Shown: one piece after another, positions 18,294 to 47,798 of the stretch
Numbering within the stretch: position 1 is the first letter of the stretch
Layout: every line of letters starts with the position of its first letter
Assembly (NCBI RefSeq): GCF_016900895.1
Contig: NZ_JAFEUN010000006.1
Coordinates: forward strand, 1 to 64,000
Source of the DNA: Parashewanella hymeniacidonis
GTDB taxonomy: Bacteria > Pseudomonadota > Gammaproteobacteria > Enterobacterales > Shewanellaceae
Length of the DNA: 64,000 nt
Direction of reading: 5' to 3'
The notes under the pieces: model-generated
Databases searched by the model: none
Told to the model about the DNA's origin: nothing
Seen by the model: the letters and a program-made list of their open reading frames with translations, nothing else
Position numbers and translations under genes: made by a program

Positions 18294-18299
18294 ATTATA
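18294..18299 (-). promoter_or_regulatory. Candidate ndk -10 box
   Basis: A perfect TATAAT on the minus strand, 43 bases before the ndk ATG. No good -35 is seen at 17 bp; an ACAAC/GTTGT inverted repeat (18304-18323) sits there instead and could be a regulator site. Confidence 0.4.
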
Positions 18300-18495
18300 A
18301 AAGACAACTTTTCAAAATGTTGTAAGTCATTGTATAGACTATAATTATAATCAGCCAGTTTAGTGATTTTGGTAAATATGTACTCAAATATGTACACACT
18401 TGAATTTTTGCCCTTAAAAATGATTTCGCCACAGCGATCGTTTTAAGGCGTGGTATTATCGGTTAGTTCTCACAAAATTAAAAGGGAAAGACAGG

Positions 18496-18715: not shown

Positions 18716-21700
18716 TTATAGATCTTTAATGCCTAGTTGCTTTTTCTTTTGAGAAAACTGCAATGACAATTCAATTTTCTTATTGTCGATTTTCTCTATC
18801 AGCTTTTCTTTCTTGGCTTCGTCCATCTTAGAACCCTCAATTTTACGTTTCATTTGATTAAGGTTTCTAAGCTGCTTTTCCAGCACATGACCATACGCAT
18901 GCAACTTCAACTGACGATCATACTTCTGCTTATAGGCTGAACGCTCACTAGCTGGTAATGTTTTATATTCCATCTTGTAAGCATCGAGTAATGACTTATC
19001 ATCATAAAAGTTACTGATGTTAGTTCGAGGATCTACTGCCTTATAAAATCTACGACTAAATGGAATGTCTCTGCGATCAACCTCTTCACCGCTTGCCACT
19101 TTTGCCGTTGAGCTTGTGGTTCTGGAAGCGAACTGGAATAAACCACCACCAATAAATTTAAGCATGTGCTGAATAGATTGCGGTGCAATACTAATCCCAC
19201 CTTCTCGATATTTCGAACCACCAGTATTGTCATTTAACCAGGTAGTCATATCACTGAGCCATTGCCAAGTGCGATTATCCCCTAAATGGCCGTCCGACTT
19301 CTTCACCTTGTAACCCGATTGCTCAGGATAGATATTGCTCCCGAAGAAGTTTTCATTAGCCACTAACTCAACAATTGGCTTTCCAACCGTAGGCATTGCC
19401 GTTTTAAGTAAACCCGTTTCAATGTTTTGGCTATCGCTTGAGCCAATAGGCGAAAACACCGAAGTAGCTGTAAGCATTAATCGACTCGCCACTTTACCAA
19501 CTGACTTGCCACGTTGAAGATCATCAAGCGCATGACCGATATTTGCAAAGATGTTGTAACCATAAGGCATAGGGATAGCAACATAATCCTTGCCTTCACC
19601 TAGCATGATCACAAAGTTGTTTGCTTTTACATAGTCAGGGATTTTGTCATAGTAAGGTTCACCATCTTCATCATCACCGCCAATCATGCGCATTAGGTGT
19701 GAAGCCGCAATCGTAGCCATAACGGTACCAAAAGCGATTTTTTGTGAAAGGTTATAACGTGCCGGATTCAAACGAGACTTGGTTACGTCTTTAGGTGTCG
19801 CAATCGCTCTAAGCATGTTAGCCGTACCCTGCACACTGGCATTAGCAAACATATATAAAGAGTTGACCGTGTTACCCCACTCGCCCTTGCGGTTAAAGTT
19901 AACGGTTAAGTTTTTGGCTAAACTGGCGGCTTGCTTTGCACTGACACCTTGCTTACGAGCATGATAGTAGGTACTGAAACGAGTAGCGTTCTCTACAATG
20001 TCGTTATAGTCAGACACAAAATCAATCACGGTATTGAAATGCTTTCTTGCTTTACCAGTAGCCGTATCACTAGCAGCAGCTATAGCACCATTTAATTGTT
20101 TGCCGAGTTCGTTAATGTCTTTTTGATTAACCCAACCCGTTTTTGCACCATGCTCTAAAAACTCTTTTAAATAACTGCCCCATTCACCTTCAAAGCTATT
20201 TTCTCTAAAGGCTTTTCGAAGTGTCACCATTGCTTTAGGTACAGACTTGATCATCTTCTTAGCAAGTTTCTCAGTGCCTTTCGCTTTACCGTCGGCAATT
20301 TGAGTTTCAGCCAATACATTATAAATAGCGGTCTGAATATCACGACTGAAGTTAGTCAGCATAAATTCAGGGTTCCACGTTGTCACCAGTGCGGACAATG
20401 TGCGAGTCACTTTACCTAAGGTTTGAGTAATGACATTGGTTTGCTCAACACCTAAGTTATTCATGGCTTTTAATATCAATGGATCCTTAACCTTGATATA
20501 ACGCTCAACACCATCAATTTTAGTGGTGAAGTAATTATCAACGTCTTTAGCCATTTCAAAGCCTGACATTGGTACTTGTTCAACTTGAGTTTGACCGTTT
20601 ACTTTTCTGGTACCTCGCTTCATATCTGGCTGTTCTTCGGTGAACACTTGCCAAAAGTCTGAATCAGGGTTGTCTTTAACCATTTTTATGAAAGTGTTAC
20701 CAACTTCATTTTTTCTGGCCCTAATAATTGCCCTAGAAGTATCTGAAATAGTATGAAGCAACGGAGATTCAGCCAAAGACCTACGGCCTAATGCTTTTAT
20801 CGTTTCACGACCTTTAACATTAAATCCTTTGCCAGTGCCGAACCTCTTACCTTCTTGTGACTTGGCATCATCTACAGCATAACCTTTCAATGGCACATAG
20901 TATTGATACTGCTCTTGCCATGAATCAATTGCATCTTGCGCTTCAAGGCCAGAATCAACCATACGTTGACGAGTTTCAGTCAGCATTGCATAAACATGGT
21001 TCGCCACTTCTTCTAACTGCAGTCGTTTACCTTCAAATACGGCTTTATCTAAAATGGCTTGCGCATCTTCGTTACTCATGCCTGAACCTTTACCCTGTAG
21101 CTCAGGGTTAATGGTATCTATATATGCGTTACGTTCTTCGGCATGTTTAGCAATCAGATATAGGTCAACTTCCTCTTGAGTCAGTTTATGTTTTGCCATT
21201 GATTCAGTGATTTTATCAACGTGGTTAACTTCCATTTCTCGCAGATCTTCGGTTACTTTACCGTGAAATGCTTCTTCAGCCTGGTAAGTATTATTACTTT
21301 CAGTGATAGAAAGCTTACCTTGTAAGACCTTTAACCTTCTAAATTTATCCTGAATTTTACGAATGCCTGCATCAACAAGCTTTTCATCAGCTAAGACTAT
21401 TGAATCATCAGATCGACTAAACATATCCGTTGACGGTTTAAAACCGCCCTTTGGTGGTGGGTTATTATTCCCTACTTTGCCATTACGGATATTTTTAGCG
21501 ATAGTTTCACCGAGTCGGTGCAGTTCGCTAGTTGATACTGGATATTTACTTAAGCCAATCTTCTTAAGTGCATGACGCAACCAAGAGGTAATTACATCAT
21601 AAATACGTTGCGCTTTATTGCGTTTAGCCTCTACAACATGCGCAAACACTTCTTCGGCTTGCAATTCTTTGGATAATTTTTTGTAATGCTTGTTGTGTTC

Positions 21701-24700
21701 AATTAAAAGCCAAAGTTTTTTCAAGCTTGGCTCATTTTTAGAATCAATTATTTTCTGAAGAATATCTTTCTTAACATTTTCACCAAATAAGGTGAGTCCG
21801 TAGTGTCCGAGGATTTCGTGTCTGAGTGTTTCTCTCGCATCAGCCCTATCTGACAAATTGGCTGTGGCAATGGCAAATACCCCTCTTTCTCGATTGAATG
21901 AGCCTTTGATCCGTCCTTCTTTTTCGATGGTGTATTCTGGTCCATAGATTTCCTCCTGAGTTTCTTTTACTACATAATCAAGCTTAATGTTGCCATTGTA
22001 GTTATCAAGAAACTCCTTAACAATCTTTTCGCCTTCTGCAACACTAATACCTTTAGGCTTGGTCTTGTTTTTAGCTTTTACAATGCTAGGGATAGAGCTT
22101 TTTAACGCTACCTGTTCAATGTCTTGCTCTGGTTGCGGTTTCAACTTATCCAAGAAAGCATAATCCTGTGCCGGTATAGAATCAGGCTTTTTCTTAACTC
22201 CTTCAATAATGAACTCAGAATCTTCGCCTAAAATGTTCTGACCAACTAAGTGAACATAATTACCGTCTTTATCATAAGCTGGTTTAACTTTGCCTTTAGT
22301 GGTCTGAATATCTAAGCCTAATGTTTCAAAGCTTTCTCCGTTAAAAGTTACGGTTTCAGGCTTAATGCTAACGTCATTCGCTGCGGCCTTAACATTGCGA
22401 ATTTCTTCTTTATCAATAAATCTGTTTGGCTTTTCGCTTCTGCGGATCTTGTCTTTAATATCGGCAATTTCCGTTTCTACTTCTAACCAAAGGTTTTTAT
22501 CTTTCTCAGAGGTTAACGCTTTATCACTAGGTGCATTTTTCAAAGCTGGTTGAGCGTTTTTATAATCGCTTTCTAAACTTGAAAGGTTGCTTTTCGCTGC
22601 ATCAAGATACTCTTTAATGGTTTTCTCAGTAACTGCAGGGTGAAGCGCAGAAACAACTTTAGGCGTTTTAAAGTCCTTTACATTGCGGCTTTCAGTTAAA
22701 GATATATTCGCTTTACCAAGTTTTAAATAAACTTCAGAGTTATACGTTTTATCTTTCTCACCAATAGAAGCCGTTTCAACACTAATACCAATAACAACAT
22801 TGTCATCCAGTTTAAGCTCTTGCTCGATAGACTCACCTAAACGTAAGTCAGTGTCTTTTAAAGCCTGAGAAAGCGGAGCAATTAACTCATTATTAAGCGC
22901 CTTAGAATAACTGTGATTATGAGCATATATATCCTTTAGCTTTGGTCGAACTGGCTTTTTGACCTTTTTCTTTCTCGCATCAGACAGCATTTCCCATGCA
23001 GCATCCTCAATTTGATAAGCTTCAGCATCATTTGATTGTTGCTCAACGGCATCGGCAAGAACTTTCTTAAATCCAGCCATATCAAAGTGGTCAAATTTGA
23101 TCTTAGATACCATATTAATAAAGCCTGATAACTTAGCCTTATTCTTGTCGTAGTTTCTAACCGTCTTATTGGCTGCGTCATACTCCATAGATTTAGAGGT
23201 GAAATCAGTCTCTAATCCAAGCAACTCACCGTCAGAACCAAGCTTCATCTTATAAATAGGATTGCCCGTAGTTTGCGCCTTAAAGTTTGCGTAACTATCC
23301 GCATCACTGTTTTGATCTTCTACAAATTCATCAATATCACCATTGCGGAATTGCTCAATCGCTGCGGCTTTTCTTTCCAGAATTTGCCACATAACCGGGT
23401 CGCTAGAACCTTCAGTAGAATAAGCATTGATCACAACTTCAAAAGATTCAGGCTTTCCTTTAGCTGCGGCTTGCTCATAAAACGAATTACCCTGACGAAT
23501 AATGCGCCCTTCACGTTGTTCCATATCAGACGGACGCCAAGGCGCATCCATGTGATGAAGTGCAACCAAGCGTTTTTGTACATTCGTACCAGCGCCCATT
23601 TTAGAAGATGAACCAATAAGCACACGAATATCGCCTTCATTTACTGCGTCAAATAGTGCATCTTTTTTAGAAGGTGTGTTGTAGTCATGAATAAAAGCTA
23701 TTTCGTTTTCAGGAATGCCAGACTCAATAAGTGTCTGTTTTAAATCATCGTAAACACTAAAGCCAGTATCAGCGGTTAATGTTGCCGCTTCCAAGTCTCG
23801 GATCATATCTTCCGCTTTTTCGGCCTTGTCTGCGTCAAGATCATGGTTACTTCTCACCATTTCAACGAGCTCTACCAATGTACTGGTATAAGCATTTTCC
23901 TGAGATTTAAGCGAAGTAGTTACAAATGACCGAGCCTTTTTATCGTCCATGACCAAAGCTGCCAACTTAACTAAATCAGCTTTGGCGTTACCCGCTGCGG
24001 TTTTAGTCGGTACGCCCATATCAGAGAAAACAAGCTGAGTACCTTTCTCTTTAGTCCACTTGTCGTAATTTTCTTTAATCGATTTAGCCGCACTTTTTAC
24101 CTTACCAGTAGGATCTGCTTGCAGTGACGGATCAACTAAGCGAACATCAAGCGAAGCTTTACGGGCATCACTCAACACCCAAAGCGGGTTATCAATCTTA
24201 GCGTATTCTTTTCGCGCTTCACGACCAGAGATAGATTCAATACCTTCCATTCTGGCAATAAGATAATCATTGAATTCTTTTTGAGTTTCTGACGCTTTAG
24301 TGGTAACTAACTGCCTGCCGCCATTAGCAACATTAGGGATAGGGAAGCGGGTAGTTTCATTCGTACCTTCTCGCTCATTGCGCTCACCTACATCTTGAGC
24401 ATAGATATTAACCATATCAGCTTGAGTAATAACATCAGCAAACTGTTTGTATTTAGCAATCAGCTCTTTAGCACTGTTTAAACCTTTTAATATACGTCTT
24501 TCTTTAACCGTACCTGTAGGCGTGTACTCGAGTGCAACCTGAGTATCAATAAACGAACCTGAAAATGCATCATAATGAGAGATATGATTCTCTTTCAGCA
24601 TATCGTGACCGAGGTAATACATCATTGTATAAATCTCGACTAAGCTGTTTGATACTGGTGTACCTGTCATAAAGGTTACACCACCATTTTCAAGACCTTG

Positions 24701-27700
24701 AACACCTCTAGCCTTTATAAGTAAATCAAGCGCCTTATCACTACCTTTAGGGTCATTCATGCCCACAACACGATCACCACGGGTCGCATACATTAAGTTT
24801 TTAAACTCATGCGCTTCATCCATTACCATGTAATCAATGCCGAGATCAGAGAAGCTAAACCCTATACTGTCCTTTTCTTTCTCAAGCGCTTCCTTCTTAG
24901 CTTTAAGTTTATCCTTTAGCCCGGTAATACTCTTTTCCATTTGCGAAACAGAAGCACCACGCCCGCCCGCTTCCTGTTTCTCTTTTTTGGCTTTTTCTAA
25001 CGCTTCTCTTAGTTCGTCAATTTTCTCATTGAACACCATTTCAGTGGATTCAAAATCATTAGGTAACTTTTTAAGATGAGAATGACCAATAATAATCGCA
25101 TCATAATCACCAGTAGCCATTTGTGAGAAAAACTTTTTACGGTTTTTGGCATCCATCTGTTTATCAGATGCCGCCAAGACTCTAGCACCAGGATAAAGTT
25201 TGTAAAAATCTGCGGTAAACGAACCAATAATATGATTAGGCACAACAACAAGTGGTTTCTTGCTCATACCTAAGCGTCTACGCTCCATCACGCCAGTAAT
25301 TGCAGTAAAAGTTTTACCCGCACCAACAGTATGATCAAGTAATGCGTTAGGCGTTTGAATCATACGCAAAGCACCGTCTAGCTGAGTTTTACGCATATCG
25401 ATTTCAGGATTCATACCTACCGTTTGAAGATATAAACGTCCGTTAAACTTTCTAACCGTATGCGTGTTGACTCTATCGTTAAAGTTATCAGTTATCTGCT
25501 TTTTAATATCAGGGTTGCTATTCGACCAAGTGGTAAACAGATCCGCTAACTTGTTAACTAGCACATTGGCTTGACTGGTTTTTTTATCATTCTTAACTGA
25601 AGTTTTAGCATCGATGCGATCATAAATAACCAATGCCTTACCCGTTGCTGCGTGTTCAAATAATTTGCTAACACTTAAACCAATACCATTGTTAAATTGG
25701 TTAGCAAGCGTGGTTTTATCGGCTGCTGAGTGTTTTAAAATTTTGATTGAACCAATTGAGCGATCAACGGAAACATTAGCATTTACACCTAAAGCAGATA
25801 AAAACGACTCAAATACTCCTTCGTCCATCCAAGTCGCACGAATGGAAGGTTTAACCTGTTCTGTGGTTTTATCTTTAGGTAAAGCCGTTTTCAATAATTC
25901 TGCGTTTTTGTCTAAACCTGCATTTTCTGCGGCGGCAAGCTTGGCTTTAACATTCCCTGACAAATAATCATCAACAAATACATAATTGCCACTTTCAGGA
26001 TCTTGAAGTAAATACGGCTTATCACCTTCAGTTAATAGCTTTTTCGCTTCAATCTTAGACTTACCCATTAAGTCAGCGATATAAGCTACATCAACAACGC
26101 CTTTCTCTTTCATCGAGAAGTTAACTGCATCATCAACATTATCCGCAGATTCAGGCTTAACGTATGGCTGAATCATGCGCTTATCAAAAATAGCGTGTTT
26201 AGTCACTTTCTTAGATGACTTAGAGACACTATCCAAACCAGACTCAATGTCTAAGTTTCCATTTAATAGGCCTAAGTTTTTCTCAATACTTTCAGGTTTA
26301 GACTTAGTCCCCATAGAAGCAAGCGCATCATAATCTTTATTAAGCTGCGTTCTCAGTGCTTCAACATTACTTAGGTTTTGCTTTTCAGCTTTTAGAAGTG
26401 CAAGCGCAGTATTACGGATCTTAAGAATCGCTTTAAGGCGCTTAAACTTATTAGGACCTAATTGAGCATTACCCAAGGCTTTTAATAGCTCACCTCTGAA
26501 CTTGCCAAAAGGTACAGTGCCGTTTAAATACCCCTCAATCGCTTTAAAGGCATTAGTCTTATATGAGCTTTTTAATTTACCTGCAGCATTGAGCAAATGA
26601 GTTTTAGCATAAGCAGCAATACGCTGCTTATCTTTATCAAACGTCTTAATCGCTTCTAAATGCTTGCCGTTTTCAGTCCATACTGTATCTGGTGTAACTT
26701 TGGTTAATACTGCATTGCCTTCAATGTCGTCATCTTCACGTAATACAACATTATCGTCACCGTTAAGCACCATACCGCCAATAGACAAGTCACTTTCAGT
26801 TAAGGTAACTTCACCGCCAACTTTGTCTAAAGTTTCATTACTTACGGTTAAATCAACATTATCAGCCAGTTTAGCAATCGCATTAGACAGCGACTTACCA
26901 ATATCAGCATGTTCAGCCGTTGGGTTAACCGTCAGTTCGCCACCTTCGGCACGACTCGCATACATAGTGCCTTGGTTAGACACTTCACCGAGGACATATT
27001 GCGGGTTTTGTTCGAACCATTTATTAATGCGAACCCCGTTAACCTGTCCTTGGGTATCATTCCAAACGGTATTGGTAGCCTTTTCACCCTCTTTAAGCTT
27101 ACGGAATATCACCACATCGGTAGTAACCTCCGTTCCCGCATTAGACTTAAAGGCCGTATTCGGTAAACGAATCGCACCTACAAAATCCATAGTTTTAGAC
27201 AATTCACTATGGTTAGCGTTTTTTGTGTCTAAGAATCGGCTAGTGATCACCATCATCATTAAACCGTTTTCGTGCAACAGCTTTGATGTTTTAGCAATCA
27301 TGTAATTGTGAATAGATAAACCTGAAATATCTTTGAATGTGCTATCTGTAACAGTGAAAGCGCCAAACGGCGGGTTACCAATCGCTAAAGAGAAAACGCC
27401 CTGTTTAAACTTAGCATCTTGATAACCTTTAACCTGAATGTCTGACTCGTCATAAATCAGCTTGGCTAAGTTACCAGTGATTGGGTCAATCTCAGTAGCC
27501 GACCAATGCGACTGTTTGCGTAAATGTTCAGGTTGCCAGCCAATAAAGTTACCACTGCCGACACTTGGCTCAACCACATTCATAGGCTTAGTGCCAAGGC
27601 CAAACGCTTCAACGCCGGACCACATAGCCTTAACAATATCTTTAGACGTATAAAAAGCGGTTTGGATCGACTCCCTAACACCTTCATACTCTGAACGGGT

Positions 27701-30700
27701 TAAAAGTTTTTTAAGCTCAGCGTGTGCTTCTTTAGCGAATTTCTTGCGGGTCTGAGAATTGAAAACATCTTTTAAACCGCCCCAGCCAACATAACGGGCA
27801 AGAATTTTCTTTTCTTCAAGTGTAGCGGGTCTATCTTCTGCTTGAATTTGTTTAAGTAAGCGGATCGCTTCTAAATTGGTAGCAACTCGCTCACTTTCAG
27901 TACCGTTTGCAATGTTATCAACATCGTCAAGGTTTAAGCTTGATGTTCCAGAATGGTTTTTAGTGCTTGGCTTTGTGCTTCGTTCTTTTCCACGCCCACT
28001 TGTTGCAGCGCTTCCATTTCCTTCACTGTCATCCTTGCCAACGCCGCTGTCTCTACTTCCAACTCGTCCTTGCTCATTGCTTGATAAGTCGGGTTGCTGT
28101 CCAGTACGCTCTGTTTGATTATCGCTTGCAATTGTTTCATCTTGTTTTGATTCCGTTACTTGCTTAGTTTCAGTATCGGCTTTTGTTGCTGAGTTTTCAA
28201 CGGCTTTAGCTTTAGCATCAATCACCCTGCCAAGGAAATCTCTATAAGCAACTTCGATGATAGGATCAAATTTACCATTTTCTTTCTGCCAAGCTGTATC
28301 GAAGTCGTCACCAAGCATCATATTGGTTTGGATTTCAGAAGAAAGCTTTCTAATGTGTGTAGCCATGAAGTGACCAGTAGCCGTTTTTCCTGCAAGTGCA
28401 ATGTGAGTATCTTTTACGTCATCAAAACTTGGCTGGTTACTTGCACTCCGCTTTTCTTCAATTTCACCGTCTGAATTTTTAGCAACAGGCTTATGCCTAG
28501 ATGTAGGTTTGTTTTCTATATTAGGCTTTTCCTGTTTCGCATCAACAGTAATGCCACGTTCTTTTTCTGCCTTAACCTCAGCACCTTTAAGTAGCTTATC
28601 GTTATGCTCATTAATACGTTCTTCACGAATAAACCAACCGTCCTTACCTTTGCGGAAGGAAAACGGATCAATCGCCTTAGCTTCATTGCGAGTTAAATTG
28701 TTATCAATAATGCCGGTTAACTCTTTACCCTTTTTAGTGGTATGAGTTACACGCTCAACACCATCAGCATATAAATCAGGTTTTGACTCGGCTTTAAGCT
28801 CAACGGGCTTAGTAGTATCACCGTCCTTAGCCCATGCCTTAAAATCATCAAGTGACATTTCAGCAATAGAGCCCGTACCTTTCCAGCCTTTAGAGTAATT
28901 CGATAAATAAGCCTTTTCAGCTTCCGCTTTAGTCTCAAAACCAAGCATGATTTTATGTTCGTCAAACTTTCTCGACTTTGAATCTACCTGGTTAACAACA
29001 AACACCTTATTGCTGTTATCAGTTGAAGGCTTAACGAATACATCAAGCGCATCTCCGTCTGCACCTTTAGTGCCTGTAATATCACCATAATGATGATTCA
29101 TTTTTACAGACCATTCTTTACCGTCAGAATCAACACCTTTGCGGTCACTGCCTTGCGGGTTCTCGATGCCAATATCAAAACCACTGTGTTTAACTCGGCC
29201 TAATTTATAGTTATTCGCTTCTTTTTGCGCTTGAGTAGGTTCAGGTAAATCATTAAGTGGAGAAGTGGCCGCTTCGTGAGCTTGTTGGTCGATATTGGCT
29301 GAGCTGTCAGAACTTGCAACATCAAGCAATTTGCTCAACTTACTTTTTATATCTTCTGGTACTCTCGCCTTATTTATAGCTATTTTAATCGATTCAACTT
29401 TTCTTTGCTTAGCCTCGCTGTTTTGTTCTTTATCTAAGTTTTTAATTCTAGCAACAGCTTCTCTAGCGTTCTTTTGGCCTACAGAAGAAAGTCCTTCATA
29501 AGAAAAGTCATATTCCGATTGCAGTGTAGCTTCGTCAACTGTTTTAGGTTTAACTTGCTGATCGCCAGATACAGAAACGGCCTCTTGTGAGGCCGCTTGT
29601 TGTTCTGGTTTTACTTCTTGATTAGGTGGTGATTCATCTAATGAACTGTGGTGTAAATCGTTTCCAGATGATACAGAAGCAGTTTCTCCACTGTCTGACT
29701 CAACTCCGCTGGTATCGGCATTTCCTTGCTCATCAATTCCTGTTTGTGGAAGTATATCGCTACTTGGTGCGCTTCCTGATTGCTGATCACCTTCTTCGAT
29801 AACGCTTCCAGTATCCAAGTTGGCGGGAGTAGCGCTTGCTGCTTCATCATCTGTTGTTAATTGCTCTTGGCTATTATCATTGGCGAATATTACACCCTTA
29901 TCCTCAATGGCCAAAGGCTGCGAATTGACTTCATCGGCGATCTGCTGCTGGTATCCTTTGATATTTTGATCCTGTTCAAACGCTTGTTGTTGCTCTAATT
30001 CGCTCGCAAATGGATCATTAAAGTCTTTAGCTTCACTCAATAAATCGTCAACACTTGAGGCATTATCACCCGCTAAAGATTCCTGAACCTGACCAAAACC
30101 ACCCTCTACACGTTGTTGGTGTAATCGCTCATTCATTGCAGCCCTACGGCTGGCAACATCATCAGCAACAGGCGTAAAGACTTCGTGATCAATATCGTAT
30201 TCAAGCTTCAACGTTCGGCTTGCTACCGCCTCGGCTTGGACTTCTGTCATACCTTGCTTTATGGCTGAATCAATCAACTGCTGCCTAACTTGCTCAATCG
30301 CTTCATCCATGGGAACGCCTGATTCAACAAGCGATTCAATACCCGTTTTAGCAACTGGCTGCGCCTTTTTCTGCCAATCCATAGCAAGCTGAGCTGACTC
30401 TGAACCTGCTCTAATCGTGCCACCGACAACAAAACCGCCAACAAAAGCCTCGTCAAGATGATTAATCTCGCTTAAGTCTTTACCTGCGCCCCATTGAGCA
30501 AGTGCCTCTTGGCCTGTTTCTGTTGCACCTTCAATGGCAGCACCAAATAACACTCTACGTCCAAACTCTAAAGCAGAATCAGGGCGTTTATAAACTTCGG
30601 CAAACTCACCTTTACGAATACGTTTAGCGGTATTACGCAAACCTTCTTTTTTTACTGCGTCGTAAATCTGACCTGTAGAGCCTTTTAAACCAATGCGCTC

Positions 30701-31219
30701 TAATGCCATTTGACCAAAGCCAGAAGTAACAGCTCTAGTTACATTCTTTTCATCTTCTGGTTGTGAAGAATAAGCTTCTTCAGATAAACCACCACCCATG
30801 ACAAAAGCACCTGCACCAGTAGCCGCACCTGCCATATAAGGCAAAGAGTTAGAAACTAATTCACCAGTGTATGAACCTAAGTCACCAAGTGAATCAATAT
30901 CTTTATAGCTCTCGACCGTTGGCTTATACGCTTTTTGTTCTTCTTGGTTGCGCTTAATACCTTCATCAGCCCATTGTGACAACGTACCGCCTTGACCAAT
31001 GGTTTCAGCAACAGAGCGACTAAATGAACCTTCTTCATAACCCTCTGTATTTTCGCCCGTATCAGTAAAACCTTTAACCGCACGATAACCAATCTCTTGC
31101 AGTTGATCGACACCAGCGCCAAAAGCGGCAACTACACCGCTTTCTGCTTTAGGTTGAGCAAATGGATCATTAAATTCAATTTCTTTTTCTGCAAACGGGT
31201 CATAGAACTTATTCGACAT
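18716..31219 (-). CDS. Giant polyvalent virion protein with pyrophosphatase-like, methyltransferase, helicase and peptidase-like modules (DarB-like)
   Basis: A single open frame of 4,167 residues. Visible modules in order: an N-terminal segment with repeated DPFA motifs and a glycine/alanine-rich stretch; an inorganic-pyrophosphatase-like domain of phage polyvalent proteins (about 675-800, GDALDVFVKP); an N6-adenine methyltransferase (about 1160-1400, VVEPSVGSGNF and NPPFG); a superfamily 2 helicase with Walker A DHTVGAGKTF (about 1961), MDEAHEFKN (about 2131) and QREGRIIRQGN (about 2567); a metallopeptidase-like motif RHEILGHYGL (about 3131); and a long C-terminal region (from about 3620, RDIQTAIYN) like the LPD38 domain. 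The methyltransferase-helicase pair matches P1 DarB, which is injected with phage DNA to block type I restriction. Its place directly after the internal virion genes suggests packaging and ejection. The protein spans a fifth of the window without interruption. Confidence 0.9.
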   Translation of the reverse strand: MSNKFYDPFAEKEIEFNDPFAQPKAESGVVAAFGAGVDQLQEIGYRAVKGFTDTGENTEGYEEGSFSRSVAETIGQGGTLSQWADEGIKRNQEEQKAYKPTVESYKDIDSLGDLGSYTGELVSNSLPYMAGAATGAGAFVMGGGLSEEAYSSQPEDEKNVTRAVTSGFGQMALERIGLKGSTGQIYDAVKKEGLRNTAKRIRKGEFAEVYKRPDSALEFGRRVLFGAAIEGATETGQEALAQWGAGKDLSEINHLDEAFVGGFVVGGTIRAGSESAQLAMDWQKKAQPVAKTGIESLVESGVPMDEAIEQVRQQLIDSAIKQGMTEVQAEAVASRTLKLEYDIDHEVFTPVADDVASRRAAMNERLHQQRVEGGFGQVQESLAGDNASSVDDLLSEAKDFNDPFASELEQQQAFEQDQNIKGYQQQIADEVNSQPLAIEDKGVIFANDNSQEQLTTDDEAASATPANLDTGSVIEEGDQQSGSAPSSDILPQTGIDEQGNADTSGVESDSGETASVSSGNDLHHSSLDESPPNQEVKPEQQAASQEAVSVSGDQQVKPKTVDEATLQSEYDFSYEGLSSVGQKNAREAVARIKNLDKEQNSEAKQRKVESIKIAINKARVPEDIKSKLSKLLDVASSDSSANIDQQAHEAATSPLNDLPEPTQAQKEANNYKLGRVKHSGFDIGIENPQGSDRKGVDSDGKEWSVKMNHHYGDITGTKGADGDALDVFVKPSTDNSNKVFVVNQVDSKSRKFDEHKIMLGFETKAEAEKAYLSNYSKGWKGTGSIAEMSLDDFKAWAKDGDTTKPVELKAESKPDLYADGVERVTHTTKKGKELTGIIDNNLTRNEAKAIDPFSFRKGKDGWFIREERINEHNDKLLKGAEVKAEKERGITVDAKQEKPNIENKPTSRHKPVAKNSDGEIEEKRSASNQPSFDDVKDTHIALAGKTATGHFMATHIRKLSSEIQTNMMLGDDFDTAWQKENGKFDPIIEVAYRDFLGRVIDAKAKAVENSATKADTETKQVTESKQDETIASDNQTERTGQQPDLSSNEQGRVGSRDSGVGKDDSEGNGSAATSGRGKERSTKPSTKNHSGTSSLNLDDVDNIANGTESERVATNLEAIRLLKQIQAEDRPATLEEKKILARYVGWGGLKDVFNSQTRKKFAKEAHAELKKLLTRSEYEGVRESIQTAFYTSKDIVKAMWSGVEAFGLGTKPMNVVEPSVGSGNFIGWQPEHLRKQSHWSATEIDPITGNLAKLIYDESDIQVKGYQDAKFKQGVFSLAIGNPPFGAFTVTDSTFKDISGLSIHNYMIAKTSKLLHENGLMMMVITSRFLDTKNANHSELSKTMDFVGAIRLPNTAFKSNAGTEVTTDVVIFRKLKEGEKATNTVWNDTQGQVNGVRINKWFEQNPQYVLGEVSNQGTMYASRAEGGELTVNPTAEHADIGKSLSNAIAKLADNVDLTVSNETLDKVGGEVTLTESDLSIGGMVLNGDDNVVLREDDDIEGNAVLTKVTPDTVWTENGKHLEAIKTFDKDKQRIAAYAKTHLLNAAGKLKSSYKTNAFKAIEGYLNGTVPFGKFRGELLKALGNAQLGPNKFKRLKAILKIRNTALALLKAEKQNLSNVEALRTQLNKDYDALASMGTKSKPESIEKNLGLLNGNLDIESGLDSVSKSSKKVTKHAIFDKRMIQPYVKPESADNVDDAVNFSMKEKGVVDVAYIADLMGKSKIEAKKLLTEGDKPYLLQDPESGNYVFVDDYLSGNVKAKLAAAENAGLDKNAELLKTALPKDKTTEQVKPSIRATWMDEGVFESFLSALGVNANVSVDRSIGSIKILKHSAADKTTLANQFNNGIGLSVSKLFEHAATGKALVIYDRIDAKTSVKNDKKTSQANVLVNKLADLFTTWSNSNPDIKKQITDNFNDRVNTHTVRKFNGRLYLQTVGMNPEIDMRKTQLDGALRMIQTPNALLDHTVGAGKTFTAITGVMERRRLGMSKKPLVVVPNHIIGSFTADFYKLYPGARVLAASDKQMDAKNRKKFFSQMATGDYDAIIIGHSHLKKLPNDFESTEMVFNEKIDELREALEKAKKEKQEAGGRGASVSQMEKSITGLKDKLKAKKEALEKEKDSIGFSFSDLGIDYMVMDEAHEFKNLMYATRGDRVVGMNDPKGSDKALDLLIKARGVQGLENGGVTFMTGTPVSNSLVEIYTMMYYLGHDMLKENHISHYDAFSGSFIDTQVALEYTPTGTVKERRILKGLNSAKELIAKYKQFADVITQADMVNIYAQDVGERNEREGTNETTRFPIPNVANGGRQLVTTKASETQKEFNDYLIARMEGIESISGREARKEYAKIDNPLWVLSDARKASLDVRLVDPSLQADPTGKVKSAAKSIKENYDKWTKEKGTQLVFSDMGVPTKTAAGNAKADLVKLAALVMDDKKARSFVTTSLKSQENAYTSTLVELVEMVRSNHDLDADKAEKAEDMIRDLEAATLTADTGFSVYDDLKQTLIESGIPENEIAFIHDYNTPSKKDALFDAVNEGDIRVLIGSSSKMGAGTNVQKRLVALHHMDAPWRPSDMEQREGRIIRQGNSFYEQAAAKGKPESFEVVINAYSTEGSSDPVMWQILERKAAAIEQFRNGDIDEFVEDQNSDADSYANFKAQTTGNPIYKMKLGSDGELLGLETDFTSKSMEYDAANKTVRNYDKNKAKLSGFINMVSKIKFDHFDMAGFKKVLADAVEQQSNDAEAYQIEDAAWEMLSDARKKKVKKPVRPKLKDIYAHNHSYSKALNNELIAPLSQALKDTDLRLGESIEQELKLDDNVVIGISVETASIGEKDKTYNSEVYLKLGKANISLTESRNVKDFKTPKVVSALHPAVTEKTIKEYLDAAKSNLSSLESDYKNAQPALKNAPSDKALTSEKDKNLWLEVETEIADIKDKIRRSEKPNRFIDKEEIRNVKAAANDVSIKPETVTFNGESFETLGLDIQTTKGKVKPAYDKDGNYVHLVGQNILGEDSEFIIEGVKKKPDSIPAQDYAFLDKLKPQPEQDIEQVALKSSIPSIVKAKNKTKPKGISVAEGEKIVKEFLDNYNGNIKLDYVVKETQEEIYGPEYTIEKEGRIKGSFNRERGVFAIATANLSDRADARETLRHEILGHYGLTLFGENVKKDILQKIIDSKNEPSLKKLWLLIEHNKHYKKLSKELQAEEVFAHVVEAKRNKAQRIYDVITSWLRHALKKIGLSKYPVSTSELHRLGETIAKNIRNGKVGNNNPPPKGGFKPSTDMFSRSDDSIVLADEKLVDAGIRKIQDKFRRLKVLQGKLSITESNNTYQAEEAFHGKVTEDLREMEVNHVDKITESMAKHKLTQEEVDLYLIAKHAEERNAYIDTINPELQGKGSGMSNEDAQAILDKAVFEGKRLQLEEVANHVYAMLTETRQRMVDSGLEAQDAIDSWQEQYQYYVPLKGYAVDDAKSQEGKRFGTGKGFNVKGRETIKALGRRSLAESPLLHTISDTSRAIIRARKNEVGNTFIKMVKDNPDSDFWQVFTEEQPDMKRGTRKVNGQTQVEQVPMSGFEMAKDVDNYFTTKIDGVERYIKVKDPLILKAMNNLGVEQTNVITQTLGKVTRTLSALVTTWNPEFMLTNFSRDIQTAIYNVLAETQIADGKAKGTEKLAKKMIKSVPKAMVTLRKAFRENSFEGEWGSYLKEFLEHGAKTGWVNQKDINELGKQLNGAIAAASDTATGKARKHFNTVIDFVSDYNDIVENATRFSTYYHARKQGVSAKQAASLAKNLTVNFNRKGEWGNTVNSLYMFANASVQGTANMLRAIATPKDVTKSRLNPARYNLSQKIAFGTVMATIAASHLMRMIGGDDEDGEPYYDKIPDYVKANNFVIMLGEGKDYVAIPMPYGYNIFANIGHALDDLQRGKSVGKVASRLMLTATSVFSPIGSSDSQNIETGLLKTAMPTVGKPIVELVANENFFGSNIYPEQSGYKVKKSDGHLGDNRTWQWLSDMTTWLNDNTGGSKYREGGISIAPQSIQHMLKFIGGGLFQFASRTTSSTAKVASGEEVDRRDIPFSRRFYKAVDPRTNISNFYDDKSLLDAYKMEYKTLPASERSAYKQKYDRQLKLHAYGHVLEKQLRNLNQMKRKIEGSKMDEAKKEKLIEKIDNKKIELSLQFSQKKKQLGIKDL

Positions 31220-32474
31220 TCGATAAATATCCTTGTGAAACTGCGGCTTTGATTGCTTGATCTTTGGTCATGCCTTTGTTGCTTTCCATTATTTTCTGGA
31301 TCACGTTATCTGGACTATAACCGTCTAGCTTACTTTTTAACTTGCTAGTATCAGGTGATTGTTCGGCTGCGCCTGTTTGCTTCTTCTCTTTAGGCTTAAT
31401 CCCGTAACTTTCATCAATTGCCTTTCTGCGCTGCGAAAACACTTGCTCAACTCGCTCAACGGCTGCACTGCGACTTTCATCATCCATGTGATCATCACTG
31501 CTCATAATCTTCGCTTTCTGATTAGCTAAATCACGCTCAATAGCTGAAAGCTCTTTACGATAAGCCGCTTCAGTTTTATCAGAAGAAGAACCACCACGGC
31601 TACCAGCGCCCATTTTGCGACCAATACCACTCCAATAATCTGGCCGTTCCATCATATCGGCCATAACCGTTTTCGCTTTCATAGTCTGGATTAGCTCTTG
31701 CGGAGACATAACCTCTGGCGGATCTTTAGGGTCTGCACTTCGACCTTTAGACATTGCCTGTACGGAGCTATCACCGTTTTCATAATCAACCTTAAGCGCA
31801 AAGGTAACATCACCTTTTTCACCTACAGGAATGAAGCCATGAAAGTTAACGTCTTTAATGTTAGTGCCACGAACAGAATCAAATTCACCAACACTTCGCT
31901 TAATGCGATCTGAATAAATTTCATTGAACGCATTAATAACATCAGGCGAGTTGGCTTCTGACAGTTTGCCTGACTTGACGATTTCATTTACCCGCTTATC
32001 AAGGAACTTAACTTTTTCTCGATACTCAGGTTTCATAAATGTCATTGGAGAATAACCAGCATTACGCTCAAACATTTCTTTGTGCTCTGGTGAGATGTCA
32101 CCATTTTGCATAAAGTAATCCCAACCAGCGCCCATCATCTGTTGATCTTGCTTCCACTGATCATTACGCTCAGTTCGTGATTTTTGCCAATCACGATTCT
32201 CTTTTGCCGCTGCTTGCTGTTGCTCACGATAATCAAGCGTATCTTGATAGCGATCTTCGTTGCGTTTATCCATTAGTGAGTATCGCTTTTGCGAGTCTTG
32301 ATAGCGCTGCTCATTTCGGCTGTCAATGTCGGCTAGACGCTTTTGAGAATCAGCATAACGCTGCTCATTTCGAGCATCTATATCAGACAACCGTTGTCGT
32401 CTAAATTCGCTCTCCTTGTGGCGCTCAACAAGGTTGTAGCCACGTTCCAAACCCCTAAGTAATCCACCTGCCAT
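31209..32474 (-). CDS. Internal virion protein with N-terminal 15-residue repeats
   Basis: A 421-residue, highly charged, mostly helical protein. Residues about 25-85 contain four imperfect copies of a unit like LADIDSRNEQRYQDSQKR, predicted to be a continuous charged helix or coiled coil. The C-terminal part is also helical and Lys/Glu rich. It lies between small glycine-zipper and giant proteins in the block that in podoviruses encodes ejection proteins, so an internal virion or DNA-ejection role is inferred. The frame extends to 32537, but ATG at 32474 with an AAGGA site starts cleanly after the preceding stop and is preferred. It overlaps the giant gene by 11 bp. Confidence 0.72.
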   Translation of the reverse strand: MAGGLLRGLERGYNLVERHKESEFRRQRLSDIDARNEQRYADSQKRLADIDSRNEQRYQDSQKRYSLMDKRNEDRYQDTLDYREQQQAAAKENRDWQKSRTERNDQWKQDQQMMGAGWDYFMQNGDISPEHKEMFERNAGYSPMTFMKPEYREKVKFLDKRVNEIVKSGKLSEANSPDVINAFNEIYSDRIKRSVGEFDSVRGTNIKDVNFHGFIPVGEKGDVTFALKVDYENGDSSVQAMSKGRSADPKDPPEVMSPQELIQTMKAKTVMADMMERPDYWSGIGRKMGAGSRGGSSSDKTEAAYRKELSAIERDLANQKAKIMSSDDHMDDESRSAAVERVEQVFSQRRKAIDESYGIKPKEKKQTGAAEQSPDTSKLKSKLDGYSPDNVIQKIMESNKGMTKDQAIKAAVSQGYLSNVE

Positions 32475-32485
32475 AAAACTATTCC

Positions 32486-32722
32486 TTATAATGAGCCAGC
32501 AATGCCACCAATAACGCCACCAATGACCGCACCCCACGGGCCACCAAATTGAGCACCAATCATTGCACCTGTACCAACACCACCAAGAGTTGATTGCTTT
32601 TTCTGTTGTTTAATATTTTTATTCTGCGCTTCACGGTTCGCCTCTAAGTCAGACAAAGTTTTAAGCGACTGCTGAGCCTGATTCTTTGTGCTTGCGCCCA
32701 TGCTCATGATTGAATATGACAT
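32486..32722 (-). CDS. Small glycine-zipper virion protein
   Basis: A 78-residue protein with a polar, Gln/Asn/Lys-rich first half and a C-terminal glycine zipper (about 48-78, GTGAMIGAQFGGPWGAVIGG). Such GxxxG segments insert in membranes and oligomerise, and similar small proteins are found among podovirus ejection proteins. It lies between two internal-virion-type genes and is separated from them by only a few bases. Confidence 0.65.
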   Translation of the reverse strand: MSYSIMSMGASTKNQAQQSLKTLSDLEANREAQNKNIKQQKKQSTLGGVGTGAMIGAQFGGPWGAVIGGVIGGIAGSL

Positions 32723-32723
32723 A

Positions 32724-33173
32724 TTAATTTTTCCCTATATCAGCTAGTTGAGCTCTTGCAGCTCCCTGTCCAGTGATGATCTTGTTTTGCAAGTCATCAA
32801 CAGCTTGGCGGGTTTCATTGTTTACTGAGGCGGTTGTCAAACTTTTAAGCAACTGATTATTGTTCTTGCTCTGCTGCGTATCCAAATTACTAAGGCCATA
32901 GCGCCCCATTCTAATGGACTCGTTCTGTTCGGCACTGTTAAAAGAGTTTTCTATATTGGTTTCATTTCTAGCCAACTGCTCAGTTAATAGCTGGTCATTC
33001 TGCGAAAGCTCAAGTAACTCATTTTGTACAGGTAAAAAGCGATTTTTATAATCTTCCCATTGCTCACGGGTCAGATCTGCCATTGCATGTTGATACTTGT
33101 CCGTTCGAATGCCAGCGGAGCTTTGATTAGTATCGACTTCTTGATTTTGTTGGGTGAGTATTTTTCCTAACAT
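32724..33173 (-). CDS. Internal virion protein, paralogue 1
   Basis: A 149-residue helical, Gln/Asn-rich protein. The stretch EQWEDYKNRFLPVQNELL (about residues 36-53) parallels EKWDYYQNNIVPFENQII in the next gene upstream, so the two genes look like an old tandem duplication. No signal or membrane segment is present. Position and composition suggest a role like T7 gp14-type ejection proteins. Confidence 0.65.
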   Translation of the reverse strand: MLGKILTQQNQEVDTNQSSAGIRTDKYQHAMADLTREQWEDYKNRFLPVQNELLELSQNDQLLTEQLARNETNIENSFNSAEQNESIRMGRYGLSNLDTQQSKNNNQLLKSLTTASVNNETRQAVDDLQNKIITGQGAARAQLADIGKN

Positions 33174-33175
33174 GA

Positions 33176-33751
33176 TTAATTACCCCCTTCCTTTTTCTTT
33201 TCAGGCTTATAGTAAGAGGCTGCTGCACCACCCAATGCGCCTACCGCTTCAAGTGTTGAATCACGGTTTTGCGCTGCAATACTTGCATCATGTACTGCTT
33301 TACGTTGTGAATTAATTGCAATGTCACTGAGTGAAGAAACAGCTTTTGTTGATTGACCATCACCCATAGCCATTACATTGCCCATTTTGTCTAAATAACG
33401 CTCTTGCCCTGAGACTTGCGCCCTGCTTGCCGAATCTGCTGTAGCTACCGCCTCCATATCTGACAGGCTATTTACAGCATTTTTGAACTTGCCACTATTA
33501 GGGTTCACACCACTTGCTGCGAGATTAGTCGCTGTTTTTTCACTGGCTTGTGCAAAATTGCGCTTATTGCTCAAATTCACATCATCAGCAATACTTTGGT
33601 AAACTGAAGCATCATTGCTGCTTTTTGCATCTTCAATTATCTGATTTTCAAACGGAACAATATTGTTTTGATAGTAATCCCACTTTTCTGAGTAGACTTT
33701 TCCAAGTTCTTTCTCAAATTCAGTTTCTTTGATTTCATCATCGCCACCCAT
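33176..33751 (-). CDS. Internal virion protein, paralogue 2
   Basis: A 191-residue protein with an acidic N terminus, a helical body containing the W-x2-Y-x5-P motif shared with the neighbouring 149-residue protein, an Ala/Ser-rich central region and a C-terminal GALGGAAASYY segment before a Lys-rich end. These features and position fit a podovirus internal core protein. The exact role in ejection is not known. It ends two bases before its paralogue starts, showing tight coupling. Confidence 0.68.
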   Translation of the reverse strand: MGGDDEIKETEFEKELGKVYSEKWDYYQNNIVPFENQIIEDAKSSNDASVYQSIADDVNLSNKRNFAQASEKTATNLAASGVNPNSGKFKNAVNSLSDMEAVATADSASRAQVSGQERYLDKMGNVMAMGDGQSTKAVSSLSDIAINSQRKAVHDASIAAQNRDSTLEAVGALGGAAASYYKPEKKKEGGN

Positions 33752-37200: not shown

Positions 37201-37771
37201 CACCTAAGTGACTTTCTTCAATCTGACCGCCAATGGTATCAAGTATTACCTCTGCACTTTCTTGAGTTGATACTTCAATACCATTAACGCCCTGAGTAGG
37301 TCCTTTCATATCAGCGACATTTACAAACCGAACCCAATAAAAATAAGTTGAGCCCATTTGCACAGAATCACTAAACACATCAGCCGATGCAGTAGCAATA
37401 CGAACCGCCTTTGAAAAGTTGTTTTCCTCAGCTCTAAAAATCTCAGCGTAAGCATGGCCTCTGTAAGTCGGCTTACTCCAAGTTATCGCAATAAAAGTAA
37501 AACCGCCTCTACCTGACAAGTTAACAGGCGCATGAGGTCGCTCAATGGTTCCAACTGGTGGTTGCGGCAAGCTGCCAATGGGTTTAGTAACGCTATTAAC
37601 TAAGGCTTGACGCTTTAACCTATCCAAATCTACCAAGTCAGAATAAAGTAAAGCTCTATGCTCTTTGCCACGCTGCCCCGTTAGGATTTCAATATTTTCA
37701 GCAACGGCCTCTTGCTCTGGTGATACTCTGCCACGCTTAGGAATACCCGAAAAAGGACTACGTTCAGCCAT
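34205..37771 (-). CDS. Tail tip/fibre protein with twelve tandem coiled repeats
   Basis: A 1,188-residue protein. Residues about 75-170 form a fibronectin type III-like domain. A coiled-coil region (190-340) follows, then twelve repeats (about 345-855), each starting with a YYTKT-like motif followed by an AI...L...I helix. The C terminus (about 855-1188, containing DDVWALWGVKTEVNG and GGKSVMNTALID) resembles the DUF1983/J-protein C-terminal region of siphovirus tail tips plus a beta-rich fibre end. It is probably a long trimeric fibre used in host recognition. A J-like C terminus in an otherwise podovirus set suggests module exchange. It overlaps the upstream gene by 8 bp. Confidence 0.78.
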   Translation of the reverse strand: MAERSPFSGIPKRGRVSPEQEAVAENIEILTGQRGKEHRALLYSDLVDLDRLKRQALVNSVTKPIGSLPQPPVGTIERPHAPVNLSGRGGFTFIAITWSKPTYRGHAYAEIFRAEENNFSKAVRIATASADVFSDSVQMGSTYFYWVRFVNVADMKGPTQGVNGIEVSTQESAEVILDTIGGQIEESHLGDFLTGEIGKIPGLGEGVGSINDALAGINDDINQTKIDFNQELESVNAAVEQVKQDSNQAVNDAKTEIENAKQRVGSIELAQSSLADDLIQIAVGNDVNWRNNATKLLEVETSIGETRAKLDAEVYTKAEATEAIAAAAQTVRAEVEAAGVPLDGTIEDTYYTIATADEAIAIADQQLKASIEDPNGNSVAATLKNQYYTSVKTDEAISVATQALKAAIEDPKGNSIGATLVNDYLTQVDFESSLAQSLQTLQAEIESPNGDSLGATLQTKYYTKVDVDSSISGITDILDSFIENPEGSELGAGLTRDFYTKVTANEAIANASQLLQSAIEDPQGNSVGATLFNDYYTKTDSDQAIARQLFELNSSYDPAFEGMIENALANDQQTDRQRVVNASISRKQETLSNAQEATAESVEQLSANFNSSQADITEFKKTVAKDKLASAQQRVELNAGIEGVAANLSQNYLTKVETELAFSALNTELSSEIGDLSATLEHNYFTKTETSNAISAVNESLSSSIGNVNANLENNYLTEVETNKAISNLSTQLSSEIEGVSSNLSENYYTKTENNEALSALSTELNSSISGVSDTVSSLASTLSEDYYTKTDTDSAIAAINQELSSKIDGVDEGLGYLSATLTNQYYTKTDTDSAISIANQVLESSIGDNSAALQTLSQTVAENNDDVWALWGVKTEVNGLTSSIGLINDGSDPKFVVQGAKFAVINGNDSLTPVFSVSGGKSVMNTALIDQAFIKTLVTDDVLANRLMVGSRLTTPSINYNPSTGARSNNFSISPNGTMHCNHAELKSVTIRDNSGSVVMSSGGSISHGRVSGLGSLATQNGVSTSQVSGLQNAVTTFIDSAHINSLFGGSAIFTGKIYANKIEGDLVDADVLYIPQTAVAAKPIAWRNLIVFRVKRNPNFDQVLTVPFSAIRSPQYLNYTYGNSACDFRLNNGQQGKESIVIPKGSGSFSVSIKIKLTQDVGTSEVGCFATHLTMYIFRKSDGFIV
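35215..36735 (-). repeat. Tandem protein repeats in the fibre gene (two classes)
   Basis: Twelve repeats at the protein level. The first six are about 36 residues each and most contain an EDPxGNSVGATL-like block. The last six are about 32-39 residues, with LxSEIxGVSxxL in its place. All start with a Y-Y/F/L-T-K/E-x-[DE] motif. The DNA is diverged between copies, so the array is old. Confidence 0.8.
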
Positions 37772-39383
37772 TAATCACCTCTTGTAATTCCGACATTGAA
37801 GAAGCAATAACCACGGTTTCCACTTCACCTGTACCAAATAATTCAAAATGCCAGTATTTACCCCTGACCGTTGGCAACCTAAAAGCACTATCAGGAATAG
37901 AGCCCACTGGCTTTTCAATCACAAGCTTACGATCTGCATAAAGCCTGAAACCTATGTTAGCAATATCGCCACGAACTAAGGCGCATGAAAAAGACGCATG
38001 ATTAAATCGATACTCTTTGGATTGCCAAAAAAGTGGAAATAGATTCTCAGAAGATTCCCACTTATAGATTTTTCCGCTTTGCGCAAGGTATAACGAATCA
38101 TCGATTAAGCTGTTAAAGCCACAAACCGCGCGAAAATCAAAGTGCCTAAAATCACCCGTTTGCGGATCGAAAATAAAACACTTATCTAAGCCTTCACCAT
38201 AAAACCCTAAGTAACGTCTTTCTTGCTCAAAAGCTCGAATTGTTGAAGGCTCGAACGCTTGCCACTGCTCACGGGTTAAAATGCCCTCAGTGATAACCTG
38301 AGCACCATTGCCACTTAATGCAACCAAACCGTCAGGGCTGGCATACATCACAGCGCCATTAACCACAATTGCACTGCGCTTACTCACACAAGCTTGGTTA
38401 AGCTCTAAGTTCCGACCAGAAATAGATTCAGGCGAAGCGCCAGAAAACAGCCAAGGTCTACCCTCAGTCAAAACCGTTAACGAGTTACCAGAAGAAACGA
38501 GCGCAACAATGTCGTGATCCGTAGTGTGTTGATAACCACTAGGCCACGCATAAGGCAAATATGACTTACTAAAACACAAAGTATTATCAAAGAATCCCGC
38601 CATAATGCCGTTAGACATAGACGTTAATCCTTTCATATTCTCATTGGGTCTTTCGTAATCGTAGGTTTCAAGCGGTGAGCCCAGTTCGTCACCTTTTGCC
38701 CTATCATCATAAATCGTGGTTGATATCGGCACTTCCGCTACAAGCAAGTAATCAGCAATGCCGCCACCAGTTAACGAGCGATAAATGCGAATGTGGGTGA
38801 TATTGGCATCATTCACATTAATACCAGGTATGTTTAGAGTAACGTAAGTACCTTCTTCCTCTGGATATCGAATTAACACCCTATCTGAAGCTTGAGCGGG
38901 TGCGCCTTCCTCACCTGCTTCGGTTACATAGGTGTAAGTGTAATAGCGTGTTTCATCATCATTTGGGTCAACTTCCTCAGTCGCATCTTCATTCACAACT
39001 GCAGTAATTATTGATTCAGGTGCAGGAACACCAAGACGATAACTATTAGCAGGTTTTACGCTGCCGTTAAAAATCTGGTTATTGGTCACTCTCGGAAAGC
39101 CATCACCCGTAAAATAAACACGTTGCCACGGATCGTTAGCTACTGGACTCACAACCGCATCAACATAGCCGTACCAAGTAAACCAATGCTCTTTTTCATA
39201 CTGGAAAATGGTTTGAATGCTACTAGGTATAGTCTCAGGCAGAACTTCAGGTTGTTTTAGTGGTGATAGGTTGCCATAGTAAAAATGGCAGTTGCGAGAA
39301 GCTTGCGCAGCTTCATTAGGTAGGTGTCTAGGGTCGAGCCTTGGGCGCTCCCCTGAAAACGCATTAACAGAAATAACCGGCAT
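37764..39383 (-). CDS. Phage structural protein, probable tail/stopper component
   Basis: A 539-residue beta-rich protein starting MPVISVNAFSGERPRLDPRHLP, an N terminus seen in podovirus tail proteins that assemble below the portal. Segments such as LTVLTEGRPWLFSGASP and VVNGAVMYASPDGLVALSG look like successive beta-propeller blades. A structural component of the short tail is likely. The more specific role is inferred from its place between fibre and adaptor genes. Confidence 0.7.
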   Translation of the reverse strand: MPVISVNAFSGERPRLDPRHLPNEAAQASRNCHFYYGNLSPLKQPEVLPETIPSSIQTIFQYEKEHWFTWYGYVDAVVSPVANDPWQRVYFTGDGFPRVTNNQIFNGSVKPANSYRLGVPAPESIITAVVNEDATEEVDPNDDETRYYTYTYVTEAGEEGAPAQASDRVLIRYPEEEGTYVTLNIPGINVNDANITHIRIYRSLTGGGIADYLLVAEVPISTTIYDDRAKGDELGSPLETYDYERPNENMKGLTSMSNGIMAGFFDNTLCFSKSYLPYAWPSGYQHTTDHDIVALVSSGNSLTVLTEGRPWLFSGASPESISGRNLELNQACVSKRSAIVVNGAVMYASPDGLVALSGNGAQVITEGILTREQWQAFEPSTIRAFEQERRYLGFYGEGLDKCFIFDPQTGDFRHFDFRAVCGFNSLIDDSLYLAQSGKIYKWESSENLFPLFWQSKEYRFNHASFSCALVRGDIANIGFRLYADRKLVIEKPVGSIPDSAFRLPTVRGKYWHFELFGTGEVETVVIASSMSELQEVING

Positions 39384-39399
39384 AGTTTAGGCTCAAAAT

Positions 39400-39424
39400 G
39401 AAAAGGTCGCTATAAAAGCGACCT
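39400..39424 (-). terminator. Terminator within the late operon
   Basis: A perfect 8-bp stem (AGGTCGCT / AGCGACCT) with a five-base loop, followed on the minus strand by TTTTCATTTT. It sits between the 217-residue DUF4376-like gene and the 539-residue tail gene. Confidence 0.75.
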
Positions 39425-39444
39425 AAGATGAAATGATTTATTGA

Positions 39445-40098: not shown

Positions 40099-40101
40099 GG
40101 T

Positions 40102-42945: not shown

Positions 42946-42947
42946 AG

Positions 42948-44167: not shown

Positions 44168-44169
44168 GC

Positions 44170-44616: not shown

Positions 44617-44640
44617 TTTATGTCCTTAATGCGAGGCAAA

Positions 44641-44664: not shown

Positions 44665-44683
44665 TACATGACAGTAAAAAGGC

Positions 44684-47796: not shown

Positions 47797-47798
47797 AA

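Follow-up and report, generated by a model that had tools for sequence, protein, structure and literature searches.

Conserved carrier and exchangeable DarB-type payload in a giant polyvalent protein encoded by a prophage of Parashewanella hymeniacidonis

A prophage of Parashewanella hymeniacidonis codes for a polyvalent protein of 4,167 aa, and comparison with its relatives shows, at the sequence level, that this giant consists of a conserved carrier and of a slot for an exchangeable payload. The carrier is composed of a leader with a tandem motif, a helical N-domain, a type I pyrophosphatase-like domain (InPase), a predicted zincin with a HEXXXH motif and a C-terminus of 900 aa including LPD38. 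The slot lies between InPase and zincin; here it holds a 2,000-aa DarB dyad, formed by an N6-adenine methyltransferase (MTase) and an SNF2-type ATPase, which is 50-75% identical to the dyads of phages with a different carrier. To our knowledge, phage-borne DarB is among the few ways by which a virus can bring finished enzymes together with its DNA against restriction. What is new here is the near-isogenic view that these sequences afford of payload exchange on a conserved carrier, plus a candidate N-terminal tag.

The window analysed is a stretch of 64,000 nucleotides (contig NZ_JAFEUN010000006.1 of assembly GCF_016900895.1), in which the gene occupies positions 18716..31219. The uninterrupted frame described in the earlier note, which gave no strand, is confirmed on the minus strand: it starts with ATG, has no internal stop and counts 4,167 codons; ten shuffled versions of the window have longest open frames of 135-189 codons. 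The gene sits amid portal and terminase genes, as is typical of polyvalent proteins, and is the last of the virion genes, all given here on the minus strand: after terminase (50304-52043), portal (48203-50299), major head protein (45139-46347), internal virion protein (37764-39383), these four falling in the virion module at 37764..52043, tail fibre, and three small internal-type proteins of 442, 149 and 191 aa (31209..33751; phrog_601, 596 and 611). This gene order agrees with the position directly after internal virion genes that had been proposed. The 442-aa protein (31209-32537) contains repeated units of the RNEQRYxDSQKR type, with a 35-bp direct repeat at 54-bp spacing in window 32284-32372, and is probably a coiled rod, judging from these units.

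The prophage covers 58.8 kb, from about 18295 to 77061 of the contig, and an integrase-like gene adjoins attR. The attL core, TTATAAAAGA, is found at 18295..18304, upstream of ndk, and attR, outside the window, at 77052-77061 of this contig; both are revealed by the empty site of a sister species, G001, and by that of G002, where the ndk-side left flank joins the right flank across the 10-bp core. By this comparison the prophage looks whole. A 15-bp repeat at 18387/76900 was considered as att site and rejected, since the empty site shows the 10-bp core instead. A genome scan detected LPD38 once in the host genome and no second copy of the giant. Among the other genes, a Dam-like adenine MTase and a C5-cytosine MTase seem to belong to the prophage (contig 67954-68586 and 70700-71809, as read from the letters); genes of Vibrio phage 1.205.O are annotated with both of these activities. 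In addition, a 306-aa protein near the repressor (window 60758-61678) has a short stretch in common with the phrog_479 protein directly before the head protein (46360-47448), which may be mere coiled-coil similarity.

The modules named in the earlier note hold up, those other than the peptidase by Pfam profile search, and all the motifs it had listed are present. InPase, MTase, SNF2 and LPD38 occur in one chain, that is at least two biochemically unrelated domains, as in the polyvalent proteins, and the PHROG DarB-like family matches the giant with E = 0. All segments lie, like the gene, on the minus strand. The leader (residues 1-29; 31133..31219) is followed by the helical N-domain of the carrier (residues 30-352; 30164..31132), recognised in 18 further phage or prophage loci with 48-60% identity, and, further on, by a low-complexity linker (residues 405-640; 29300..30007) so variable that aligned relatives retain 12-20% identity. 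The InPase domain, again part of the carrier (residues 641-812; 28784..29299), matches PF18823 at residues 663-798 (E 1.7e-54) and has the acidic metal ligands DGDxxD (721-726) and DEHK (753-756); Dx[DE]xxD is kept in 39 of 42 relatives. This domain is closely like the C-terminal 130 residues of the gp19 portal (PDB 9b41 chain L, E 6.7e-34), a portal protein of solved structure; one and the same domain thus serves both a portal and a protein that is putatively injected.

Beyond the left junction region (residues 813-1080; 27980..28783) begins the dyad. Its first part, LPD36 with the N6-adenine MTase (residues 1081-1500; 26720..27979), was delimited by Pfam, motifs and alignment with P1 DarB: it includes GWGG (1145-1148), which is the GXG[GAS] motif of LPD36 preceding the MTase and is invariant in alignment A3, FYTS (1189-1192), EPSVGSGNF (1217-1225) and NPPF (1282-1285), the NPP[YF] motif of gamma-class N6-adenine MTases; the Eco57I MTase profile covers residues 1261-1339. 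A linker domain (residues 1501-1850; 25670..26719), 42-53% identical to the viral contigs L128/L133 in most windows, leads to the SNF2-type ATPase (residues 1851-2680; 23180..25669), which has 57-76% identity to L128/L133, Pfam matches to SNF2 (PF00176, residues 1955-2141) and Helicase_C (PF00271, residues 2504-2577), and the full motif set directly after the MTase, with GAGKT, DEAH, TGTP and QREGRIIRQG for motifs I, II, III and VI, all invariant in alignment A3. The MTase and helicase assignments of the earlier note thus survive HMM search. The post-SNF2 region (residues 2681-3036; 22112..23179), the end of the exchangeable cassette, is 24-53% identical to L128/L133 and shows no identity to the carrier relatives.

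The carrier resumes with the zincin-type peptidase (residues 3037-3260; 21440..22111) and the C-terminal region (residues 3261-4167; 18719..21439). In RHEILGHYGL (3133-3142) the core HEILGH (3134-3139) is HEXXXH and not the usual HEXXH, a variant described for polyvalent-protein peptidases (Iyer et al. 2017, PMC5512222) and kept in 55 of 56 related domains; both HEILGH and the downstream AEEV (3188-3191) lie in predicted helices. No Pfam match to the zincin was obtained at E up to 1. In a model of residues 3037-4167 (mean pLDDT 77) the two motif helices are placed as expected for a zincin, and the structural matches of its residues 15-215 include zincins (lethal-factor family, IrrE/PprI, MATCAP) at Z 5.4-6.2; such values can reflect a common arrangement, so that the structural matches are supportive of the predicted fold, not decisive. 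The C-terminal region, in which LPD38 matches PF18857 at residues 3856-4054 (window 19058-19654; E 2e-42, 145.9 bits versus a cut-off of 27), is common to about 80 viral contigs, and its fold is shared across phage polyvalent proteins. The AF2 model of the N-domain is all-helical (mean pLDDT 67). Foldseek searches of the C-terminal 900 aa and of the N-domain against PDB returned nothing with E < 0.001; as both models are helical and were barely tested by this search, no new fold is claimed. The only hydropathy stretch past a mild cut is 3828-3846, which gives no ground for calling the N-domain a membrane insert.

The exchangeability of the slot emerges from relatives that have the same carrier (N-domain, InPase, zincin and LPD38), which are found in phages of Shewanella and Colwellia at 55-70% identity. 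Shewanella hanedai hosts a syntenic prophage with TerL, portal and MCP 78%, 70% and 64% identical, respectively; its 2,353-aa counterpart matches residues 1-404, 643-812 and 3037-4167 of the giant at 55-59%, and between InPase and zincin it contains LPD5 and LPD1 and no DarB dyad. The same LPD5-LPD1 filling is present in a 2,568-aa protein of a Colwellia MAG; in the 1,987-aa protein of viral contig L018 the slot is empty, InPase ending at about 809 and the zincin starting at 840. The viral contigs L128-L138 display the reverse combination, a dyad 57-63% identical to that of the giant over 1,600 aa on another carrier, which is LPD39 in the two contigs scanned. Windowed identity to the carrier relatives is mostly 40-75% in residues 1-400 and 641-800; residues 1081-2990 are mainly 40-75% identical to L128/L133 (24-37% in 2700-2900), and in residues 3050-4167 it is the carrier relatives that are mostly 40-90% identical, L128 reaching about 20-40% or less. 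Thus, at each of the two junctions, both in frame, the relatives of highest identity change between those of the carrier and those of the dyad. The several conflict domains fused to an ejection-type C terminus, as the earlier note had put it, are all there; their arrangement is better described as one conserved carrier with one exchangeable payload, the DarB dyad.

The dyad is absent from all of the approximately 80 viral contigs that a scan with the C-terminus of the giant recovered. Among 194 genomes of the family and order, the C-terminus occurs in 6, query genome included, and the best dyad elsewhere is only 30% identical; no close donor is therefore found in this set. A foreign G+C signature of the dyad was looked for and rejected, there being no G+C step at the junctions, so the exchange would be either old or between phages of like composition. 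Vibrio phage VvAW1 likewise has segment 810-943, at the left junction, immediately ahead of its dyad. In Shewanella marina (L099, 9671-13296), a C-terminal carrier piece of 1,022 aa without an intact upstream part is apparently the remnant of a decaying prophage.

The giant belongs to a published class, the polyvalent phage proteins, with the DarB-like giants of Bcep22-like phages. It shares with the proteins described by Iyer et al. (PMC5512222) the joining of unrelated enzymatic domains in one chain, the LPD36-MTase-SNF2 dyad, InPase, the HEXXXH MPTase, LPD38 and the location among virion genes; it differs in the particular combination and order of its domains, and whereas accretion was described there in general, here the dyad slot is seen empty or otherwise filled in relatives. 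The Lessievirus giants (Bcep22, DC1, JC1 gp69; PHROG 10089) resemble it in size (4,500-4,700 aa), in the dyad with LPD38 C-terminus and in being coded by the last gene of the virion module; however, identity is only 26-42%, their N-terminal part carries an SLT transglycosylase and LPD3, and in DC1 no InPase is detected by Pfam. Since this transglycosylase, present in DC1, was not found by Pfam in residues 1-640 of the giant, the protein is not filed in the Bcep22-like (Lessievirus) family. As the distant phages VvAW1 and DC1 also join dyad and LPD38, this combination as such is not new. The suggested link with P1 DarB holds: the MTase-SNF2 block aligns with it at hhalign probability 99.9 over 1,281 columns, and direct BLASTP gives 1e-15. 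The two have the LPD36-MTase-SNF2 dyad in common, but P1 DarB has 2,255 aa, lacks InPase, zincin and LPD38 carrier, shows NVPF where the giant has the canonical NPPF, and has a different N-terminal signal. Finally, the giants of the isolated Vibrio phages D79 and 1.205.O (about 3,070-3,130 aa) agree with it in gene position and, with 41-44% of residues identical across about 1,100 aa, in zincin and LPD38 C-terminus; their middle is different, with no dyad and, by Pfam and BLASTP, no InPase or SNF2.

These comparisons make it reasonably probable that the giant is internal to the virion and injected with the phage genome, the conserved carrier bringing a DarB-type payload that protects the incoming DNA in cis from restriction. 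Capsid loading and passage through the ejection channel would be the task of the ends of the protein; once in the host, the SNF2 ATPase would travel along the incoming dsDNA and the MTase would methylate its adenines, providing protection in cis. Separation of payload and carrier may be the work of the zincin, and the InPase would clear pyrophosphate or attack a signalling nucleotide, a role suggested for it by Iyer et al. (PMC5512222). P1 DarB, a protein of the phage head, inhibits EcoK and EcoB (PMC9024508) and protects DNA in cis (PMC5512222), and 51 unique peptides of the 4,515-aa DarB-like protein of JC1 (gp69) were identified in purified virions (PMC9144972); packaging of this homologue supports, by analogy, the co-injection put forward in the earlier note. 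Two findings weigh on the other side: the closest relatives proven in virions are distant, dyad and C-terminus being only 25-42% identical in DC1, and carry an N-terminal transglycosylase that the giant lacks, and the MTase cap reads FYTS in the giant, with T-S in both aligned relatives and YYTP in P1 DarB, rather than the TP by which the family is described. Assembly and DNA entry can do without the dyad, as isolated Vibrio phages possessing this C-terminal carrier have none, and this favours an optional anti-restriction payload.

The SNF2 unit might instead serve as a motor for genome entry, tethered to the inner membrane by the carrier and pulling the phage DNA in, with methylation as a secondary activity. 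SNF2 ATPases do translocate on dsDNA (PMC5512222), for the N4-like phage DEV a giant vRNAP that traverses the inner membrane and draws in the genome has been proposed (PMC10925440), and the gene of the giant follows three small internal-protein genes; yet same-carrier relatives, including isolated Vibrio phages, do without any SNF2 unit, and in the loci compared this unit is joined to an MTase. A role in genome entry would be at best optional, given that D79 and 1.205.O have no dyad, and the motor is considered improbable. Slightly less improbable is that the injected MTase-SNF2 acts on the host chromosome, on host defence or on the transcription machinery, and not on phage DNA: host targets were proposed by Iyer et al. 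for many polyvalent domains, some SNF2 ATPases, RapA for one, act on transcription complexes (both PMC5512222), and InPase could target nucleotide signals, but the cis protection by P1 DarB points to the DNA travelling with the protein.

Much less credit is given to an unpackaged giant, working late inside the cell as an enzyme that modifies progeny DNA; the prophage also carries apparently ordinary Dam-like and C5 MTase genes, but the fusion to an LPD38 carrier within the virion module and the virion proteomics of the JC1 homologue argue otherwise. It is scarcely credible that two prophages were wrongly joined in the assembly, or that the gene has decayed: the assembly comprises 307 contigs and the relatives change at two points of the sequence, but both junctions are in frame within 12.5 kb that are open throughout, the G+C content has no step there, and the occurrence of segment 810-943 before the dyad in VvAW1 too argues against a chimera.

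The leader of the protein carries a further feature. Its first 22 residues contain two copies of a short motif, KFYDPFAE and EFNDPFAQ (window 31154-31210), delimited by a self-repeat test; DPF at residues 7 and 18 is conserved in S. hanedai, in the Colwellia MAG and in L221-L227, and a third DPF is found at residue 402 (window 30002-30025), behind the N-domain. An internal repeat within residues 1-60, at shuffle p up to 0.01, was detected in 15 of 72 non-redundant N-termini of giant proteins, versus 1 of 216 interior windows, none of 72 disorder-like windows and 1 of 72 windows at residues 61-120. DPF as a universal motif was rejected, few N-termini having it; the general property is a tandem repeat of a varying motif. 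Indeed, the same N-domain (48-60% identity) is preceded in different phages by different leaders: DPF twice, N[ND]PFADLPD twice, or NFFDQFD/NFFDKFD; another leader before it looks, by eye, like a repeated helix.

NFFDQFD was the commonest tandem motif seen. Among the matches listed in a DNA scan of viral contigs for this motif, it lies no more than 15 codons from ATG in 58 of 80 frames, never in more than one frame per locus; again among the matches listed, a second copy is present in nearly all tagged proteins, and the motif class occurs at residues 61-76 in 0 of 1,179 frames. The scan by construction imposes the first copy; N-terminal position and second copy are free of this constraint. The tag precedes members of unrelated families, among them DNA transfer proteins, transglycosylases, virion RNA polymerase and DarB-like proteins, which are internal or injected virion proteins; many tagged proteins match families of unknown function (tag loci: L100, L152, L079, L067, L074, L057, L154, L184, L195, L221-L239 and L240-L318). 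In L245, L247, L253, L255, L260, L284, L290 and L301 the second copy comes 105-185 residues after the first, bracketing a small domain, and the third DPF of the giant follows its N-domain in a similar way. The literal motifs were not found in the phage literature searched, and tblastn with one tag peptide, a query too short to be useful, gave four phage records. P1 DarB has a 30-residue capsid signal (PMC9024508), in which no tandem repeat was seen. On these patterns, the tandem motif of the leader may be a virion-loading tag. The chances of a broader proposal are put at a little below even: giant injected proteins would carry a short, usually tandem N-terminal tag, exchangeable independently of the next domain and acting as an address for virion loading or ejection.

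The near-matched relatives, with the slot empty or filled by LPD5-LPD1 or by the DarB dyad, separate what loading and injection need from the optional payload, and they suggest natural payload boundaries at about residues 812, 1012-1080 and 2990-3050. If the tags are loading signals, injected proteins would be recognisable from sequence alone, which would open the packaging of the largest phage proteins to test; if this reading of the tag is true, a modular arrangement of tag, carrier and interchangeable payload would be general for the delivery of phage effectors.
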